Positions 43,593 through 58,103 of a DNA stretch of 64,000 bases are shown in pieces (positions within the stretch are counted from its first letter, which is position 1; each line of letters starts with the position of its first letter). A model generated the notes under the pieces. That model was given only the letters and a program-made list of their open reading frames with translations, was not told where the DNA came from and ran no database searches. Both the position numbers and the translations under genes were made by a program. Location: positions 1 through 64,000 of the forward strand of contig DAIDGQ010000031.1 of the NCBI GenBank assembly GCA_027452215.1. Direction: 5' to 3'. The stretch is from Granulicella sp. GTDB taxonomy: Bacteria; Acidobacteriota; Terriglobia; Terriglobales; Acidobacteriaceae.

Positions 43593-43618
43593 ATGCTAAC
43601 GCAGGCATGGGTTAGCAT
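43593..43618. promoter_or_regulatory. ATGCTAAC-N10-GTTAGCAT dyad between divergent TonB genes
   Basis: A perfect 8-bp inverted repeat with a 10-bp spacer, immediately upstream of the TonB-domain gene start and about 120 bp before the receptor start. The geometry suits a dimeric repressor controlling one or both genes. Confidence 0.45.
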
Positions 43619-43736
43619 CATAGTTATAGTTTGGATTGATCATTTTTTGCTTAATTTCCTGAACTACTTTCTGCCATCCTCGCTGTCCCATCTCGAACAG
43701 GTAATTGCGAACGTGATTTTTTCAGGGCGGTATGGA

Positions 43737-46601
43737 ATGTCTAAGTTGTGGTGGGCGCGTCTGTTTTGCTGTTTGACAGCCCCGATGTACTGTTTTGCCG
43801 CGACCCGCTCTGGAGCCCTGCGCACGGCGGCCGCAGTGCGTGACGGTTCGACCGCGGACGCTCCGACAAATTTTGGAGTCCTCAGCGGCACCGTCTCTGA
43901 TCCCTCGGGTGCAAAGATCAGTAACGCCGACGTCCACGTTCAAAGCAACTCACTCCGACGCGACACCACCACCGACGATACGGGGCGATTCAGTCTTCCG
44001 CTGCCCCCTGGAGCCTACGAGGTCACGATCACAGCCGACGGCTTCAAGCCGTACAGCAACAACGTAGCGATCTCAGATCGGGCCGGCCACGCCCACATCG
44101 AAGCTCGGCTTGCCATCGACGCCAAGCCCGAGGAGATCACCGTTCCCTCCGAAGAGCAGGGCAGTACCGCGGCCGGCGATAACAAAAGCGCCCTGATCTT
44201 CAAGGGCGATGATCTCAAGACCTTCTCCGACGACGACAGCATGTTCCAGCAGGAGATCGAGGCCCTCGCCGGAGGCAACAGCATCAAGCCTCCTGAGATT
44301 CTGGTGGACGGCTTTTCCAATGGACGCTTCCCTCCGAAGAACAGCATCCGCGAGATCCGCATCAACCGTAATCCATACTCCGCGCAGTATGATCAGCTGG
44401 GATTTGGACGCGTCGAGGTCTTCACCAAGCCGGGCACGGACAAGCTGCATGGCAACTTCAGCACCTACGGCACAGACAATGTCTTCAACTCGCGCAATCC
44501 CTACACCCCCGTTGAACCTCCTTACTACACGTTCAATATGGAAGGCAATCTGAGCGGCGCCTTGAACAAGAAGACGTCCTTCTTCGTAGCTGAAACCTAT
44601 AACGATGTGCAGAATAATGCCATTGTGGATGCGATTGATCCGGCCCTGCTTACGCCGCTGGCCGAGGCCGTTGCTGCTCCGCAGCGCATGCAAACTTACA
44701 GCGGACGCATCGACCGACAGGCGACGAAGTTGAACACCTTCACCGGTCGCTACGAGTACAACAATGTTGCCGTGAGCAATAGCGGCGTTGGGCTGTTGGT
44801 TCTGCCTTCTGAGGGCTTGAACATCAATACCACGACCCAGACCTTGCAGCTCACGGACACACAGGTGATTGGTGCAAAGATCATCTCCGAGGCGCACTTC
44901 CAATACGTCCGTACTCGCCTGCAGCAAAACCCCGCGAGCACGGCGGCTACCGTCGTGGTCCAGGGCGTCTTCAATGGCGGAGGGAGTGCGGCGCAGTCGC
45001 TGGCCGACAACCAGGATCGCTACGAGTTTCAGGAGCTCCTCACTATCGCGCACAAATCCCACTACGTTCGCCTCGGCGGCCGCTATAGACTGCTGCGCGA
45101 TGCGAATGTGAGTACGGCCAATTACAACGGCCAGTTTATCTTTCCGGACATAGCCACCTACAAGCTCGCGCTCAGTGGAGAGACTCCCGCACAGATCTTC
45201 GCCAACGGCGGAGGCACCACCCAGTACAGCCTCACTGGCGGAGTACCTCGCGCCACCGTGCTCACCGGCGACCTTGGAGTCTTCGCGGAAGACGAATGGA
45301 AGATTCGCAAGAACTTCACTCTCGACCTCGGGTTCCGCTTCGAGAGCCAGACTGCGGTTCCCGACCATGCTGATCCTGCACCGCGCGTGGGGTTCGCGTG
45401 GGCCGTCGGACAGAAGCCCAAGAAGCCGCCTATTGTCATATTGCGAGGCGGCGGAGGAATCTTCTATGACCGATTCCTATCCAATAACATCCTCACTGCC
45501 ATTCGGCAGCAGAGCGGAACCCTGCAGACCGCCTACTTTGTCACCAATCCTGACTTTTACCAGCAGTACCTCAACACCCCTCCCCCTGTGTCGAACCTAA
45601 GCTCCACGCCTCCCACCCTTTACAACATCGACCCGCATCTTCGCACTGAGTACGGTATTATCGCGGGGGTCACCGCCGAACGGTCGCTGGGCAAAATCGG
45701 CAGCATCAGCGCGAATTACTTCTTCGTTCGCGGAGACCACCAGTACGTCTCGCGTAACATCAATGCGCCGCTGCCCGGAACCTACAACCCTGCCAACCCC
45801 GCCAGCGGAGTTCGCCCTCTTGGCGGATCCCAGAACATCTACCAGTTCGGCTCGGGAGGGATTGCTAAGTCTCAAGAGTTCTTCATCAACTCTCAGTTCA
45901 AGTTAGGCAAGCGAGTGTCAGGCTTTGTCTTCTACAGCTTTCAGGATGCCCACGCTGACGTAGCGAATGCGACGACCTTTCCGTCCAACTCCTACGATCT
46001 GGCGCAAGACTATGGGCGGTCCGCGCAGCCGACCCAGCAACTCGTTATCGGCGGCTCCGCGCACCTTCCGTTCGGAATTAGCAACAACTTTTTCATCTCG
46101 ACGCTAGGCGGCACGCCGTTCAATATCACGACCGGCACGGACCTGAATGGCGATACGATCTATAACGACCGCCCGGCGTTTGCCACCAATACGAATGCCA
46201 ACTCCATCATTTACAAGACGCGCTTCGGCACCTTCGACGCCAACCCCCAGCCCGGCGAGAAAATCATCCCGATCAACTACGGTAACTCGCCCAATTTTTT
46301 CTTCGTTCAGATGAGCCTGGACCGGAGCTTCAAATTAGGCCCTCGGCCGCCCTCGCCGCCGGACGCCGCCGGTGGCGCCCCTCCGAAGACCCGCAGCCCG
46401 CAGCCCGATCCGCCCTACACCCTGGGCTTTTCTGTCGAGGCCGACAACATTCTGAACCATGTCAACCCAGGAACCCCCGTAGGGGTGCTAAGCTCCCCGC
46501 TTTTCGGCCAGTCGATCTCTCTGAACTCGCCCTTCTCCCTGGGAGGCATCGCCACCTCCGCCAACCGAACCATCACCCTGCGGTGCAATTTCAGCTTTTA
46601 G
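43737..46601 (+). CDS. TonB-dependent receptor, Oar-like, with carboxypeptidase-regulatory domain
   Basis: A 954-residue outer-membrane protein. After an N-terminal signal (about 1-25) and a linker comes a carboxypeptidase-regulatory-like domain (about 45-130; FGVLSGTVSDPSGAKISNAD, GAYEVTITADGFKPY). A plug-like region follows (about 190-260; EILVDGFSNGRFPPKNSIRE), then a large barrel ending LRCNFSF with terminal Phe. A Pro-rich loop lies near about 870-890. It belongs to the acidobacterial Oar-like group, not to siderophore-specific receptors, so the ligand is unknown. The ATG at 43737 is chosen because longer frames lack a signal start. A TonB-domain gene is divergent from it. Confidence 0.9.
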   Translation: MSKLWWARLFCCLTAPMYCFAATRSGALRTAAAVRDGSTADAPTNFGVLSGTVSDPSGAKISNADVHVQSNSLRRDTTTDDTGRFSLPLPPGAYEVTITADGFKPYSNNVAISDRAGHAHIEARLAIDAKPEEITVPSEEQGSTAAGDNKSALIFKGDDLKTFSDDDSMFQQEIEALAGGNSIKPPEILVDGFSNGRFPPKNSIREIRINRNPYSAQYDQLGFGRVEVFTKPGTDKLHGNFSTYGTDNVFNSRNPYTPVEPPYYTFNMEGNLSGALNKKTSFFVAETYNDVQNNAIVDAIDPALLTPLAEAVAAPQRMQTYSGRIDRQATKLNTFTGRYEYNNVAVSNSGVGLLVLPSEGLNINTTTQTLQLTDTQVIGAKIISEAHFQYVRTRLQQNPASTAATVVVQGVFNGGGSAAQSLADNQDRYEFQELLTIAHKSHYVRLGGRYRLLRDANVSTANYNGQFIFPDIATYKLALSGETPAQIFANGGGTTQYSLTGGVPRATVLTGDLGVFAEDEWKIRKNFTLDLGFRFESQTAVPDHADPAPRVGFAWAVGQKPKKPPIVILRGGGGIFYDRFLSNNILTAIRQQSGTLQTAYFVTNPDFYQQYLNTPPPVSNLSSTPPTLYNIDPHLRTEYGIIAGVTAERSLGKIGSISANYFFVRGDHQYVSRNINAPLPGTYNPANPASGVRPLGGSQNIYQFGSGGIAKSQEFFINSQFKLGKRVSGFVFYSFQDAHADVANATTFPSNSYDLAQDYGRSAQPTQQLVIGGSAHLPFGISNNFFISTLGGTPFNITTGTDLNGDTIYNDRPAFATNTNANSIIYKTRFGTFDANPQPGEKIIPINYGNSPNFFFVQMSLDRSFKLGPRPPSPPDAAGGAPPKTRSPQPDPPYTLGFSVEADNILNHVNPGTPVGVLSSPLFGQSISLNSPFSLGGIATSANRTITLRCNFSF

Positions 46602-46643
46602 CCCAGGATCAAGCGGAAATCCAGCGTTCTCACGCCAAAGTTG

Positions 46644-46673
46644 TTGACGGCACCTGTAAATCTCGCATATTCT
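46644..46673 (+). promoter_or_regulatory. Sigma-70-type promoter for rplM-rpsI
   Basis: TTGACG (46644-46649) and TATTCT (46668-46673) are separated by 18 bases. Transcription would start near 46680. Confidence 0.55.
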
Positions 46674-46679
46674 AGAGAC

Positions 46680-47036
46680 TCGCGCAGTCTCGCGCCTGTA
46701 CCTCCGTGTGCCCATGCTTTGGGCGGCAACGAGGACATCGGGTGCCAGACATCGAGGTGAGTCTACCGGGGCAGGGCATTCTTCTTCAGATTTTGAAGGG
46801 AGCCGGCCGTCGAAGCACCCACTCCCCAGTCGCTTGCAGTTTGATCCAGCAGCTTGAGCTCAGCCGCTGAATTCGGACACAAAGGCTCTGTGCGCTCAAC
46901 CGCAACCCCCGGCTCTGGCCTGCGTGGACACCGTGTCCGCGCTCGTCCCGCCGCCTAACGCACGGCTGCAACTCTCTTCGCGCTTCAAGCCGAGCAGTCA
47001 GATCTACGAAGACGGCAGAACCAAGGAGTAACCCAG
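46680..47036 (+). other. Long untranslated leader before rplM
   Basis: About 357 bases without a convincing gene lie between the predicted start site and rplM. They hold small hairpins, for example GCCCA-tgctt-TGGGC near 46709 and GGACAC-C-GTGTCC at 46926-46938. An AAGGAG site ends it. It may contain an r-protein autoregulatory structure; no known family was recognised. Confidence 0.35.
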
Positions 47037-47522
47037 ATGAACCTCAATCAGACGACAACGATCCCCAGCGGCAAAGACATTCAGCGCAAGTGGTTCGTGT
47101 TGGACGCCTCCGGCCAGACCCTCGGCCGCCTCGCCTCCCACGCCGCCAGCGTCCTCGCGGGCAAGTTGAACCCGCTCTACACCCCGTATATCGATATGGG
47201 TGATCATGTCATCGTCATCAACGCCGAGAAGATCCACGTCACCGGCATGAAGGCAGAGAGCAAGCTCTATCGCCGCTACACCGGCTTCCCCGGGGGCCTG
47301 CGCGAGGAAGAGTACAGCAAGCTGCTCGCCCGCCGTCCCGAAAAGATCCTCGAAGAGGCGATCAAGGGAATGCTGCCCAAGAGTAAGCTCGGCCGCCAGA
47401 TGGCCACCAAACTTAAGGTGTACAAGGGTGCCGAGCATCCACACCACGCTCAGCAGCCGACGGCCATGGAGTTGCACCGCTCCGGTACGCCAATGGAACT
47501 GCACCTGAAGCAAAGAGCCTAA
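47037..47522 (+). CDS. rplM: 50S ribosomal protein L13
   Basis: A 161-residue L13. The hallmark segments are all present: [52 protein letters not shown], and the C-terminal [27 protein letters not shown]13 binds 23S rRNA early in 50S assembly. It is slightly longer than the usual 142-150 residues because of extensions at both ends. AAGGAG is properly spaced before the ATG. It is followed by rpsI, as in most bacteria, but the two genes are separated by 108 bp of inverted heptad repeats. Confidence 0.98.
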
Positions 47523-47524
47523 GA

Positions 47525-47617
47525 GCAGGGTTCAGGGCCCAGGTTTCAGGGCCGTCGAACCACGACAGTTTCGCTTCACTAAGTTTTTGGACCTTGGCCT
47601 CTGAGCCCTGGCCCCTA
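47525..47617. repeat. Inverted heptad arrays between rplM and rpsI
   Basis: Left array: GCAGGGT, TCAGGGC, CCAGGTT, TCAGGGC at 47525-47552. Right array: GACCTTG, GCCTCTG, AGCCCTG, GCCCCTA at 47590-47617. The two are roughly reverse complementary and would form an imperfect hairpin within the intercistronic RNA. Confidence 0.7.
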
Positions 47618-47630
47618 AGAGGATGTCAAT

Positions 47631-48026
47631 ATGGCAGATTTGATTCAGTACTACGGAACCGGACGCCGCAAGAGCGCGATTGCTCGCGTGTTTCTGCGCC
47701 CCGGCTCGGGCAAGTTCACCGTCAACGGCAAGCAGTTTGAGGAGTACTTCGTGACCCCGGCGCAGCGCGTCGCGGCGAAGCTTCCTCTCGGCATTGCCGA
47801 CATCAACGAGACCTTCGACGTCCTGACCACGGTCAAGGGCGGCGGAGTCAACGGCCAGGCCGATGCTGTCAAGCTCGGCATCGCCCGCGCGCTGATGGAG
47901 TTCAACATCGAACTGCGCAAGACCCTCAAGGCTGGCGGCATGGTCACGCGCGATTCGCGTGGCAAGGAACGCAAGAAGTACGGCCAGAAGGGTGCTCGCG
48001 CTCGCTTCCAGTTCAGCAAGCGCTAA
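47631..48026 (+). CDS. rpsI: 30S ribosomal protein S9
   Basis: A 131-residue basic protein. [42 protein letters not shown] and the C-terminal [17 protein letters not shown] tail are diagnostic for S9, whose tail reaches the ribosomal P site. The length is normal. AGAGGATGT precedes the ATG. It forms the usual rplM-rpsI unit, and heptad-repeat hairpins lie on both sides of the gene. Confidence 0.98.
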
Positions 48027-48042
48027 TCGTTTGTGGGCTTTT

Positions 48043-48091
48043 AGCTTCTGGCCTCTAGCTCTTGGCTAAAGACTAGAAGCTAGAAGCTGGC
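48043..48091. repeat. Inverted heptad array between rpsI and rpsB
   Basis: Seven 7-base units in register: AGCTTCT, GGCCTCT, AGCTCTT, GGCTAAA, GACTAGA, AGCTAGA, AGCTGGC. The first and last parts are reverse complements (AGCTTCT/TAGAAGCT), so the RNA would fold as a long imperfect hairpin 17 bp after the rpsI stop. Confidence 0.75.
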
Positions 48092-48202
48092 TTCTTTAGC
48101 TTCACCCACCGGCATCGCGCCGATGGCAGGAACCCAATCTCCCTTCGGGGATCTCAATCGCTTCACGTCGCAGCGCAAGCGATGCGTTTACAAGGAGCCT
48201 CT

Positions 48203-49138
<936 letters not shown>

Positions 49139-49193
49139 TTTCGGGCCGTACGTCACGGTATTCTTCGTGGCTTAATGGCCGAACGCTAACATC

Positions 49194-49222
49194 ATGGCGC
49201 GGGCCCAGGCCCGCGCCATTTT
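49194..49222 (+). terminator. Strong hairpin with T-tract between rpsB and tsf
   Basis: Perfect 12-bp arms (49194-49205, 49208-49219) with a nominal 2-base loop are followed by TTTT. It lies 56 bp past rpsB and 64 bp before tsf, so it would attenuate or end rpsB transcripts. Confidence 0.75.
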
Positions 49223-49285
49223 CGCAAATTGCGCATGCGCCCCGAGCGCTGCCCCAGAACCAAGCCCCGCACCAAGAAGGAACTT

Positions 49286-49948
49286 ATGTCTACCACTGAA
49301 GCCGTAAAGATCGACGCCAAGCTTGTCAAGGAACTCCGCGAAAAGTCCGGCGCCCCCATGGGCGACTGCCTCAAGGCCCTGCAGGAAGCCAAGGGCGATA
49401 TGGAAGAAGCGTTCGTTGTGCTGCGCAAGCGCGGCATGGCATCGGCTGCCAAGAAGGCCAGCCGCTCCACCAACGAGGGAGCTGTTGGCACCTACATCCA
49501 CGCCGGCGGAAAGATCGGCGTGCTGCTCGAGCTCAACTGCGAGTCGGACTTCGTTGCCCGCACCGACGACTTCCAGGAGCTGCTGAAGGACATCGCCATG
49601 CACATCGCCGCGGTCGACCCGCGCTACGTCGGCAAGGACGAAGTCACCGAGGCTGACCTCGCTCGCGAGAAGGACATCTTCCGCTCGCAGGCTGCCGCGA
49701 CGGGCAAGCCCGCTCCTGTCATCGAGAAGATCGTCGAAGGCAAGATGTCGAAGTTCTACGAGGAAGTCTGCCTCCTCGAGCAGCCCTTCATCAAGGAAGC
49801 GACGCTCACGATCGCGCAGCTCATCGCGCAGAAGGTAGCCAAGCTAGGTGAGAATATCAGCGTTCGCCGCTTCGCCCGCTTCAAGATCGGCGAGCCCAAC
49901 TTCACTGTAGCTTCGGCCAAGCCAGCCGCTGAAGAGCCAGCAGCCTAA
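49286..49948 (+). CDS. tsf: Elongation factor Ts
   Basis: A 220-residue guanine-nucleotide exchange factor for EF-Tu. The N-terminal UBA-like domain KLVKELREKSGAPMGDCLKA is followed by EAFVVLRKRGMASAAKKASR and the core EGAVGTYIHAGGKIGVLLEL with NCESDFVAR. KMSKFYEEVCLLEQPFIK comes next. This is the short EF-Ts form, lacking most of the second core subdomain found in the ~280-residue E. coli protein. The ATG at 49286 is chosen for AAGGA five bases upstream. A hairpin with a T-run separates it from rpsB. Confidence 0.97.
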   Translation: MSTTEAVKIDAKLVKELREKSGAPMGDCLKALQEAKGDMEEAFVVLRKRGMASAAKKASRSTNEGAVGTYIHAGGKIGVLLELNCESDFVARTDDFQELLKDIAMHIAAVDPRYVGKDEVTEADLAREKDIFRSQAAATGKPAPVIEKIVEGKMSKFYEEVCLLEQPFIKEATLTIAQLIAQKVAKLGENISVRRFARFKIGEPNFTVASAKPAAEEPAA

Positions 49949-57343: not shown

Positions 57344-57371
57344 TTTCCTAATCCCTGATCCCTAATCCTTG
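57344..57371. repeat. Heptanucleotide tandem repeat upstream of pyrH
   Basis: TTTCCTA, ATCCCTG, ATCCCTA, ATCCTTG in perfect 7-base register, ending 27 bp before the pyrH start. Confidence 0.75.
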
Positions 57372-57398: not shown

Positions 57399-58103
57399 AT
57401 GTACAAGCGCGTCCTCCTCAAGCTATCCGGAGAAGCCCTGGCCGCCGGCCGTGGCTTCGGTGTCGACGCTATTTTCGTCAACGCTGTCGCCCATGAAATC
57501 GCAGAAGCCGCCCGCTCCGGTTGCCAGATCGGCATCGTCGTCGGCGGGGGAAACTTCTTCCGCGGCGTCGCCGAGCAGGCCATCCACATGGACCGCGTCG
57601 CTGCCGACCACATGGGCATGCTCTCGACGGTCATCAACGCCATCGCACTCCAGGACGCCATTGAAAAGACCGGAATTCCCGTCCGCGTCATGTCCGCCAT
57701 CCAGATGCACCAGGTCGCCGAGCCCTACATCCGTCGCCGCGCCGTCCGCCATCTCGAAAAGGGTCGCGTCGTCATCTTCGCCGCCGGTACCGGCAACCCC
57801 TACTTCTCCACCGACACCGCCGCCAGCCTCCGAGCCATGGAGATCGGTGCCGAGGTTCTACTCAAGGCCACCAGCGTCGACGGCATCTATACCGCCGACC
57901 CCAAGAAAGATTCCAACGCCACCAAGTACGACCAGATCACCTACATGGATATCCTCAAGCTTGGCCTGCAAGTCATGGACACGACCGCGGTCTCGCTCTG
58001 CAAGGACAACAGCCTGCCGATGATCATCTTCTCCATGCGCGAGCGGGGCAACATCCTCCGCGTCATCGAAGGCGAAAAGCTAGGCTCCCTCGTCACCGCC
58101 TAA
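57399..58103 (+). CDS. pyrH: UMP kinase
   Basis: A 234-residue amino-acid-kinase-fold enzyme phosphorylating UMP to UDP in pyrimidine synthesis. The phosphate-binding KLSGEALA is at 8-15. [32 protein letters not shown] and [17 protein letters not shown] follow in the normal order. The length is standard. The start codon has no strong Shine-Dalgarno, being preceded directly by a heptad-repeat tract and CCAGA. In this window pyrH is not next to tsf or frr as in many genomes, though rpsB-tsf lie 7.5 kb away; pyrG, the next pyrimidine step, lies 4 kb downstream. Confidence 0.97.

Follow-up and report, generated by a model that had tools for sequence, protein, structure and literature searches.

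Two neighbouring gaps in a ribosomal-protein gene row, built of different seven-base words in the same inverted layout, raise the question of what is kept there: the word, the period or the pairing. The DNA analysed, hereafter the window, is a stretch of 64,000 nucleotides from Granulicella sp. (Acidobacteriota). It lies in contig C31 of a 2.5 Mb, 59%-complete genome (G000), whose ribosomal protein S2 has 94% identity to that of Granulicella sp. L46, the closest named relative among the loci found. The genes rplM (which we take to be so named from its family and the gene order), rpsI and rpsB lie in one row (Table 1). We tentatively favour, at somewhat short of an even chance, the reading that the arrays between them are intercistronic RNA hairpins from lineage-wide heptad arrays, in which pairing is kept along with the 7-base step and the word is replaceable. 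Both gaps would then hold degenerate members of a genome-wide and lineage-wide class of heptanucleotide arrays.

Table 1. Coordinates of the genes, arms and leader-like RNA around rpsI in the window
Feature	Position	Strand	Basis
rplM (ribosomal protein L13)	47037..47522	+	ORF of 161 aa; match in 27/28 genus genomes
Gap 1 5′ arm, CAGGGTT CAGGGCC CAGGTTT CAGGGCC	47526..47553	+	Direct reading; TRF period 14, 92% matches
Gap 1 3′ arm, mirror heptads GGACCTTGGCCTCTGAGCCCTGGCCCCTAAG	47589..47619	+	Direct reading; MFE fold, with pairing to the 5′ arm over the first ~22 bases
rpsI (ribosomal protein S9)	47631..48026	+	Match in 39/41 genomes
Gap 2 5′ arm, GCTTT TAGCTTC TGGCCTC TAGC	48037..48059	+	Inverted repeat score 13; lag-7 identity of the arms 0.75
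Gap 2 3′ arm, GCTAAAGAC TAGAAGC TAGAAGC	48065..48087	+	Inverted repeat; fold −34.9 kcal/mol
Conserved rpsB leader-like RNA, distinct from the heptad hairpin	48094..48202	+	10-sequence alignment
rpsB (ribosomal protein S2)	48203..49138	+	Relatives across Acidobacteriota; start picked by AAGGAG preceding 48203

Heptad arrays in the gaps flanking rpsI

The degenerate heptads in inverted arrays that an earlier note had described on both sides of rpsI were seen in both gaps, strongly in the rpsI-rpsB gap (gap 2) and weakly in the rplM-rpsI gap (gap 1) when taken alone. A 5-base loop separates the arms of the gap 2 inverted repeat. In the first 82 bases of this gap (48027-48108), to which its shuffle statistics are confined, the best lag-7 segment scored 9 (P = 0.00025; P = 0.004 for any lag from 4 to 21), and neither the lag-7 match fraction of 0.52 nor the inverted repeat was equalled in 4000 mononucleotide shuffles. 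The fold had a z of −3.8 (0/200 against dinucleotide shuffles). Chance was ruled out as the origin of gap 2, and of the genome-wide arrays described below. The array occupies only the first ~65 bases of gap 2. The separate leader-like RNA ahead of rpsB showed two-sided changes in 4/9 predicted pairs, a weak consensus energy (−2.1 kcal/mol) and no match in Rfam. The available text of a paper on ribosomal leaders (PMC7247131) lists a Bacteroidia L13 leader, and the term Acidobacter is absent from it.

In gap 1, GGACCTTGGCCTCTGAGCCCTGGCCCC begins at 47589 by direct reading. The best lag-7 segment scored 6 (P = 0.019; P = 0.29 for any lag from 4 to 21), the lag-7 match fraction was 0.38 (P = 0.002) and the inverted repeat had a P of 0.03 (4000 mononucleotide shuffles). 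The fold of −40.6 kcal/mol had a z of −1.4 (25/200 against dinucleotide shuffles). Gap 1 alone is weak to marginal against chance, and it gains weight because five congeners have related arrays there, a CAGGGCC-type array being present in six genomes (G000, G022, G017, G024, G006 and G100). Lag-7 scores of gap 1 ranged from 10.5 to 13 in G022, G017, G024 and G006, with the other lags tested at 5 or less, and by eye G100 had the same layout as the window. Gap 1 of G006 did not fold into a long two-arm hairpin (z −1.0).

The earlier note had asked whether these act as processing or termination hairpins, and termination was not supported. A role as transcription terminators or attenuators would explain why the stems are long, stable and placed behind stop codons, both in convergent and in co-directional gaps. 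However, neither hairpin has a T-run after it, so the U-tract that follows the GC-rich stem of an intrinsic terminator was lacking in both gaps, and termination in gap 1, between rplM and rpsI, would cut off rpsI. The ordinary terminator-like hairpins of the genome (AAAGGCC...GGCCTTT) also look unlike the heptad hairpins. A scan limited to loops of 3-8, which leaves the long loop of gap 1 outside its reach, found no terminator-like site at the gaps (3 sites against 2.9 expected in shuffles). We consider a terminator or attenuator role improbable.

Rfam gave no match above the gathering threshold in the entire window, and at E up to 1 there were four sub-threshold matches in 46600-49400, none of them within either gap. 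The gap sequences had no match in E. coli. A search of the gene row against plasmids returned one partial rpsB match and nothing more, and a heptad array queried by BLAST against plasmids had no match, as expected given the low-complexity filter.

Period seven in the genome and the phylum

An excess of period 7 beyond the window, on which the earlier note had made its idea depend, was present. In 740 kb of the 2.5 Mb host genome there were 41 lag-7 segments, against 1, 2, 1, 2 and 5 at lags 5, 8, 10, 11 and 13. The two gaps, with scores of 6 and 9, are both degenerate and fall under the threshold of 11 used for these genome-wide counts; at this threshold the sole lag-7 segment of the window lay at 46390-46407, within a long ORF (43593-46601). 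Lag 14, the double of period 7, had 37 segments in the same 740 kb. Multiples of three were also raised (37, 23, 38 and 28 segments at lags 6, 9, 12 and 15), mostly in coding DNA. At a slightly higher threshold, 20/28 lag-6 segments were in called genes and the remainder belonged mostly to a GCAANN hexad family. With a stricter threshold, 356 kb yielded 16 lag-7 segments against none in a first-order Markov control. Relatives gave 50 lag-7 segments in 744 kb against 0-8 for the other lags from 4 to 13, and E. coli gave none in 150 kb.

Five YAG (TAG or CAG) triplets at spacing 7 occurred 56 times in the host genome, 6 times in G002, 11 times in G007 and 35 times in relatives, with counts of 0-4 at spacings 5, 6, 8, 9, 10 and 11 and none in third-order Markov controls. 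At lag 7 the arms of the 25 intergenic hairpins of the host genome had a self-match of 0.51, which rose to 0.71 at lag 14; the other lags from 3 to 16 gave 0.17-0.29. Elsewhere the lag-7 self-match of arms was 0.45 in two genomes of the class (f3f4), and in family f2 it was 0.38, with 0.42 at lag 6. Hairpin arms of G002 (0.32, 55 intergenic hairpins) and G007 (0.27, 12 hairpins) had little or no lag-7 signal, and the trait is therefore uneven within the genus.

At least one lag-7 segment was found in 9 of 20 further genomes of the phylum, each represented by one 20-kb stretch (one by 3.6 kb); one of the nine had more segments at lag 8. The 20 kb covered from each of three near relatives in a different genus of the family (G084, G073 and G095) contained no lag-7 segment. 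Among 80 rpsB loci a lag-7 segment was present in 18/38, 12/21 and 4/21 of three groups made by hit rank. An unusually dense cluster was observed in locus L130 of the host genome (contig C20), with about eleven lag-7 arrays in 17 kb, nearly all of them TAATCCC/TAGGGAT.

Replacement and restriction of the repeat words

The rpsI-rpsB gap reached a lag-7 score of at least 8 in 12 of 24 genus genomes, and at lags 4-6 and 8-11 in none. About eight words were found at this one site (TAGCTTC, TAGGGAT, TAAGGAG, CAGTTCT, TCACTTT, GGTTCTC, GTAGACG and AAGTTCT), a count made by eye that includes G014 (score 7.5). When the distinct gaps of all loci were scored, with identical gaps dropped and L031-L034 repeating genus genomes, lag 7 reached at least 9 in 20/72 first gaps and 33/98 second gaps. 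No gap had a score of 9 at any other lag from 4 to 12, and shuffles reached 9 once. Identical gaps were likewise dropped when folds were compared over the 80 bases that follow rpsI: z was below −2 in 22/32 heptad gaps and in 14/36 non-heptad gaps, leaving 10/32 and 22/36, respectively, with no significant fold. The proposal that heptad-less species have ordinary hairpins at rpsI-rpsB was accordingly too strong. The significant folds at sites lacking a clear array are compatible with a weak requirement for a stem at this place and are no proof of it.

Across 137 intergenic arrays, which are degenerate internally, there were 53 distinct canonical units and thus no fixed word shared by all. This set is no random genome sample, since 79 of the 137 arrays come from rpsB-centred loci; 22 of 159 arrays lay within called genes and were left out of the counts of place and units. 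L093 is on the same contig as L161/L162, and L089 on that of L193; L093 and L161/L162 were counted separately in the tallies of arrays, places, units, partners and unit similarity. Of the 53 units, 43 had YAG on one strand, as did 34% of random intergenic heptads; ATG/CAT was absent (8.1 expected). The claim of the earlier note that the period is kept and not the sequence therefore holds in part: period and inverted layout are constant while the unit varies at an orthologous gap, but the sequence is not free.

Unit pairs within one mismatch made up 71% in G007, 21% in the host genome, 15% in other genomes (48 pairs) and 7-9% between genomes. Units thus resemble each other somewhat more inside genomes than across them. 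A stop codon was found on at least one strand of 38/53 units, against 36% of random intergenic heptads; this excess is possibly in part an artefact, as the gene caller treats open repeats as coding. Stops in every frame (7 = 1 mod 3) were rejected as the cause of period 7, YAG being enriched at least as much, and they are a possible extra factor.

The arrays could also be direct-repeat sites for a putative protein, with YAG recognised at 7-base intervals in either DNA or single-stranded RNA and the pairing incidental. The YAG core of most units is consistent with such sites, as are the unit families common within a genome, above all in G007, and the unpaired state of the G007 arrays. However, the units are not uniform inside a genome, nor at a single site when sister species are compared, and complementary arms would hide single-stranded sites. 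We regard protein sites of this kind as very improbable.

Pairing of the arms

A partner arm within 220 bases was found for 67/132 arms, against 0/137 with shuffled flanks. About half of the counted arms, together with both arrays of the window, occur as inverted pairs. One 200-kb stretch of G007 held 17 intergenic arrays, every one of them single-armed, and in this genome none of 31 arrays in 600 kb (30 stretches) had a partner arm.

We collected 74 heptad hairpins from which identical arms had been removed, a few of them (L164, L165) being GC-rich coding-type repeats. The 5′ arm was YAG-type in 52, CTR-type in 8 and tied in 14. Where both arms left the consensus, their letters were complementary at 148/168 positions, a figure inflated by the choice of hairpins for good pairing, against 10-21 of 21-45 when the arms were slid by one or two units. 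As a cleaner control, arms of 39 hairpins were compared with same-word arms of other hairpins. On average 12% of these foreign arms paired as well as the own partner, which outpaired all of them in 21/39. The comparisons show that the arms are largely mirror copies, whether through a common origin, later correction or selection. One acidobacterial contig held five heptad hairpins in 4 kb (L107:4827-8628). The arms of four of these, 41-48 bases long, were near-perfect mirror copies, and the hairpins differed from each other.

Position relative to genes

Genes were called by a custom script, which recovered 51/51 annotated stops on one E. coli stretch. The 108 array loci comprised 86 co-directional, 12 convergent, 5 divergent and 5 contig-edge cases. 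Divergent gaps thus held 5/103 of the array loci, whereas they make up 25.6% of the intergenic DNA (P = 5e-8). Arrays of co-directional gaps started a median of 9 bases past the upstream stop codon. The pattern persisted when rpsB-centred loci were excluded: 35 were co-directional, 6 convergent and 4 divergent (4/45, P = 0.009), and 29/41, against an expected 15.7, had a stop codon no more than 15 bases away. Paired arms were found in divergent gaps in 0/67 cases and single arms in 7/65. Single arms had no strand bias with transcription outside G007 (12 sense, 15 antisense), and G007 had 10 sense and 4 antisense.

If our favoured reading of intercistronic hairpins is correct, the operon hairpins would be transcribed along with the genes, standing after the stop codon of one gene and ahead of the next. 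Paired arrays would persist right behind stop codons, where by computed folding the transcripts would form stems. There they may protect or set the 3′ end of the upstream message, affect its stability or mark a processing site. Placement near stops could also reflect mere tolerance.

Strand bias and origin of the arrays

GC skew in the window ranged from +0.36 to −0.22, with a zero crossing near 40 kb. The median absolute skew of 5-kb stretches was 0.24 in the host genome and 0.23 in G007, and 0.04-0.06 in G002, relatives and phylum samples. Genes on the plus and minus strands agreed in the skew of their third codon positions (rho 0.88 in the host genome and 0.89 in G007), and hence the skew of these two genomes is a property of the chromosomal strand and not an effect of gene direction.

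Arrays may be neutral or selfish, arising by slippage at a 7-base step, made palindromic by template switching and surviving only where harmless behind stop codons. Their orientation fits such an origin. The strand bearing YAG matched the local GC skew in 30/30 orientable arrays of G007 and in 20/24 orientable single arms of the host genome. The G-rich strand of the array agreed with local skew in 30/31 single arms of G007, 18/22 of the host genome and 19/20 of the relatives. Arrays were also denser in strongly than in weakly skewed 10-kb windows, with 25 in 40 windows against 3 in 27 in the host genome and 27 in 34 against 4 in 26 in G007. Skew strength did not divide paired from single arrays in the host genome (medians 0.32 and 0.30, P = 0.30). 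Moreover, close species can differ by the gain or loss of an array at a single site: a CAGGGCC-type array is missing from gap 1 of G002, though its gap 2 and that of G022 are one base apart in 196. The strand rule, which operates at the level of DNA, points to a replication-strand-biased origin, and it is the main evidence that points to the arrays as first of all a mutational product.

A second repeat family follows the same rule. The hexads GCAANN/TTGCNN, for example in L118:501-596, L119:7211-7339, L130:8094-8193 and L144:4997-5132, accounted for 12/13 intergenic lag-6 segments in three genomes, with GCAA on the G-rich strand in 12/12; within called genes 5/7 hexad segments agreed with the rule. 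That an unpaired family obeys it favours a neutral origin, but none of the 13 intergenic lag-6 segments had a mirror arm, and hence pairing is not automatic. Against a neutral origin, too, YAG ignored the skew in the relatives, where skew is weak (12 with it and 13 against it, 25 in all), and in the other phylum samples only 2/7 single arms agreed in G content. The lack of paired arms in divergent gaps and the ATG-less units suggest selection. A neutral or selfish origin is in our judgement only a little less probable than maintained hairpins. We slightly raised our estimate of it, and slightly lowered that of maintained hairpins, because the G-content strand rule also holds in relatives and the lag-7 signal of arms is weak in G002 and G007.

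Selected hairpins may themselves have a mutational source. The arrays would be born and altered by a slippage-type mutation of 7 bases with a strand preference, and would be turned into inverted pairs, for which template switching is the simplest idea.

Comparison with known repeats

Cyanobacterial STRR heptamers are tandem repeats of one word, and REP/REPIN elements are dispersed palindromes of 20-40 bp that have their sequence in common and are linked to a RAYT transposase. The heptad words here differ between sites.

In logic, the nearest match is the P6b stem of the trnL(UAA) intron of Nostoc and Calothrix. According to the available text (PMC4476775), this heptanucleotide stem has two degenerate classes (Class I TDNGATT, Class II NNTGAGT), which in Nostoc were repeatedly swapped with the fold retained. 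As there, degenerate heptads build a stem of inverted arms, and the unit class is interchangeable at one site. Unlike the Nostoc stem, which as described occupies one site in a cyanobacterial group I intron, the arrays here occupy many intergenic sites with many words in another phylum; those of the window are intergenic in a ribosomal-protein gene row and not in a trnL intron.

TAACTGA direct repeats occur in marine Beggiatoaceae and also in Cyanobacteria and Bacteroidetes (MacGregor 2015, PMC4679880). The accessible portion of that paper indicates several likenesses: intergenic heptamers with YAG on one strand, presence also in ribosomal-protein operons, and stop codons in all frames of one strand. 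Sets between stop codons in one cyanobacterium have a single shared chromosomal orientation (PMC4679880, same portion). The Beggiatoaceae repeats differ, as described there, in having one fixed word, mostly right upstream of start codons, and in being direct and not inverted (169 direct sets, one indirect). Among long simple sequence repeats, seven is given as the commonest unit of those with 5-11 bases, and polymerase slippage was proposed (PMC4679880, same portion). In the host genome and its relatives, seven-base tandem units likewise exceed other lengths not divisible by three. The available descriptions of the STRR and long simple sequence repeats mention neither inverted pairs nor an exchange of units at a single site, nor a placement behind stops in Acidobacteriota. 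Geobacter metallireducens has dispersed tandem heptanucleotides (GGACCGG x4; class 3, MTYCTGA x5), one class of which contains CTGA (PMC2700814, in the part available). They differ, as listed there, in a single consensus per class and in lying also inside genes (49 elements; 16 class 3 sites). Heptanucleotide repeats are thus already known from cyanobacteria, Beggiatoaceae, Bacteroidetes and Geobacter in the texts available. In the open-licence papers searched we found no account of genome-wide inverted heptad arrays in Acidobacteriota.

A broader proposal is that Acidobacteriota have a genome-wide system of interchangeable heptad hairpins, in which the 7-base step, YAG core and arm complementarity are kept behind genes and the word is repeatedly rewritten, new arrays being oriented by the replication strand and later becoming palindromic. 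We think this unlikely as a whole. If true, it would define a class of RNA stems in which selection acts on period and pairing and not on sequence, a logic shared with Nostoc P6b. The reason for the preference of bacterial tandem repeats for seven bases is unsettled, and one phylum here offers many arrays, some of them orthologous with the unit rewritten and pairing kept. Together with the unpaired arrays, whose strand is predicted by skew in two genomes, these should allow a mutational origin to be told apart from a selected use as RNA.

Other observations in the window and host genome

The end of a short contig of the host genome (C3:16834-16944) carries another rpsI-like fragment, with 92% identity over residues 95-131, which may be an assembly remnant or a result of strain mixture. 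In the window itself, another short heptad array, CCTAATCCCTGATCCCTAATCC, lies at 57347-57368, immediately ahead of an ORF at 57399.
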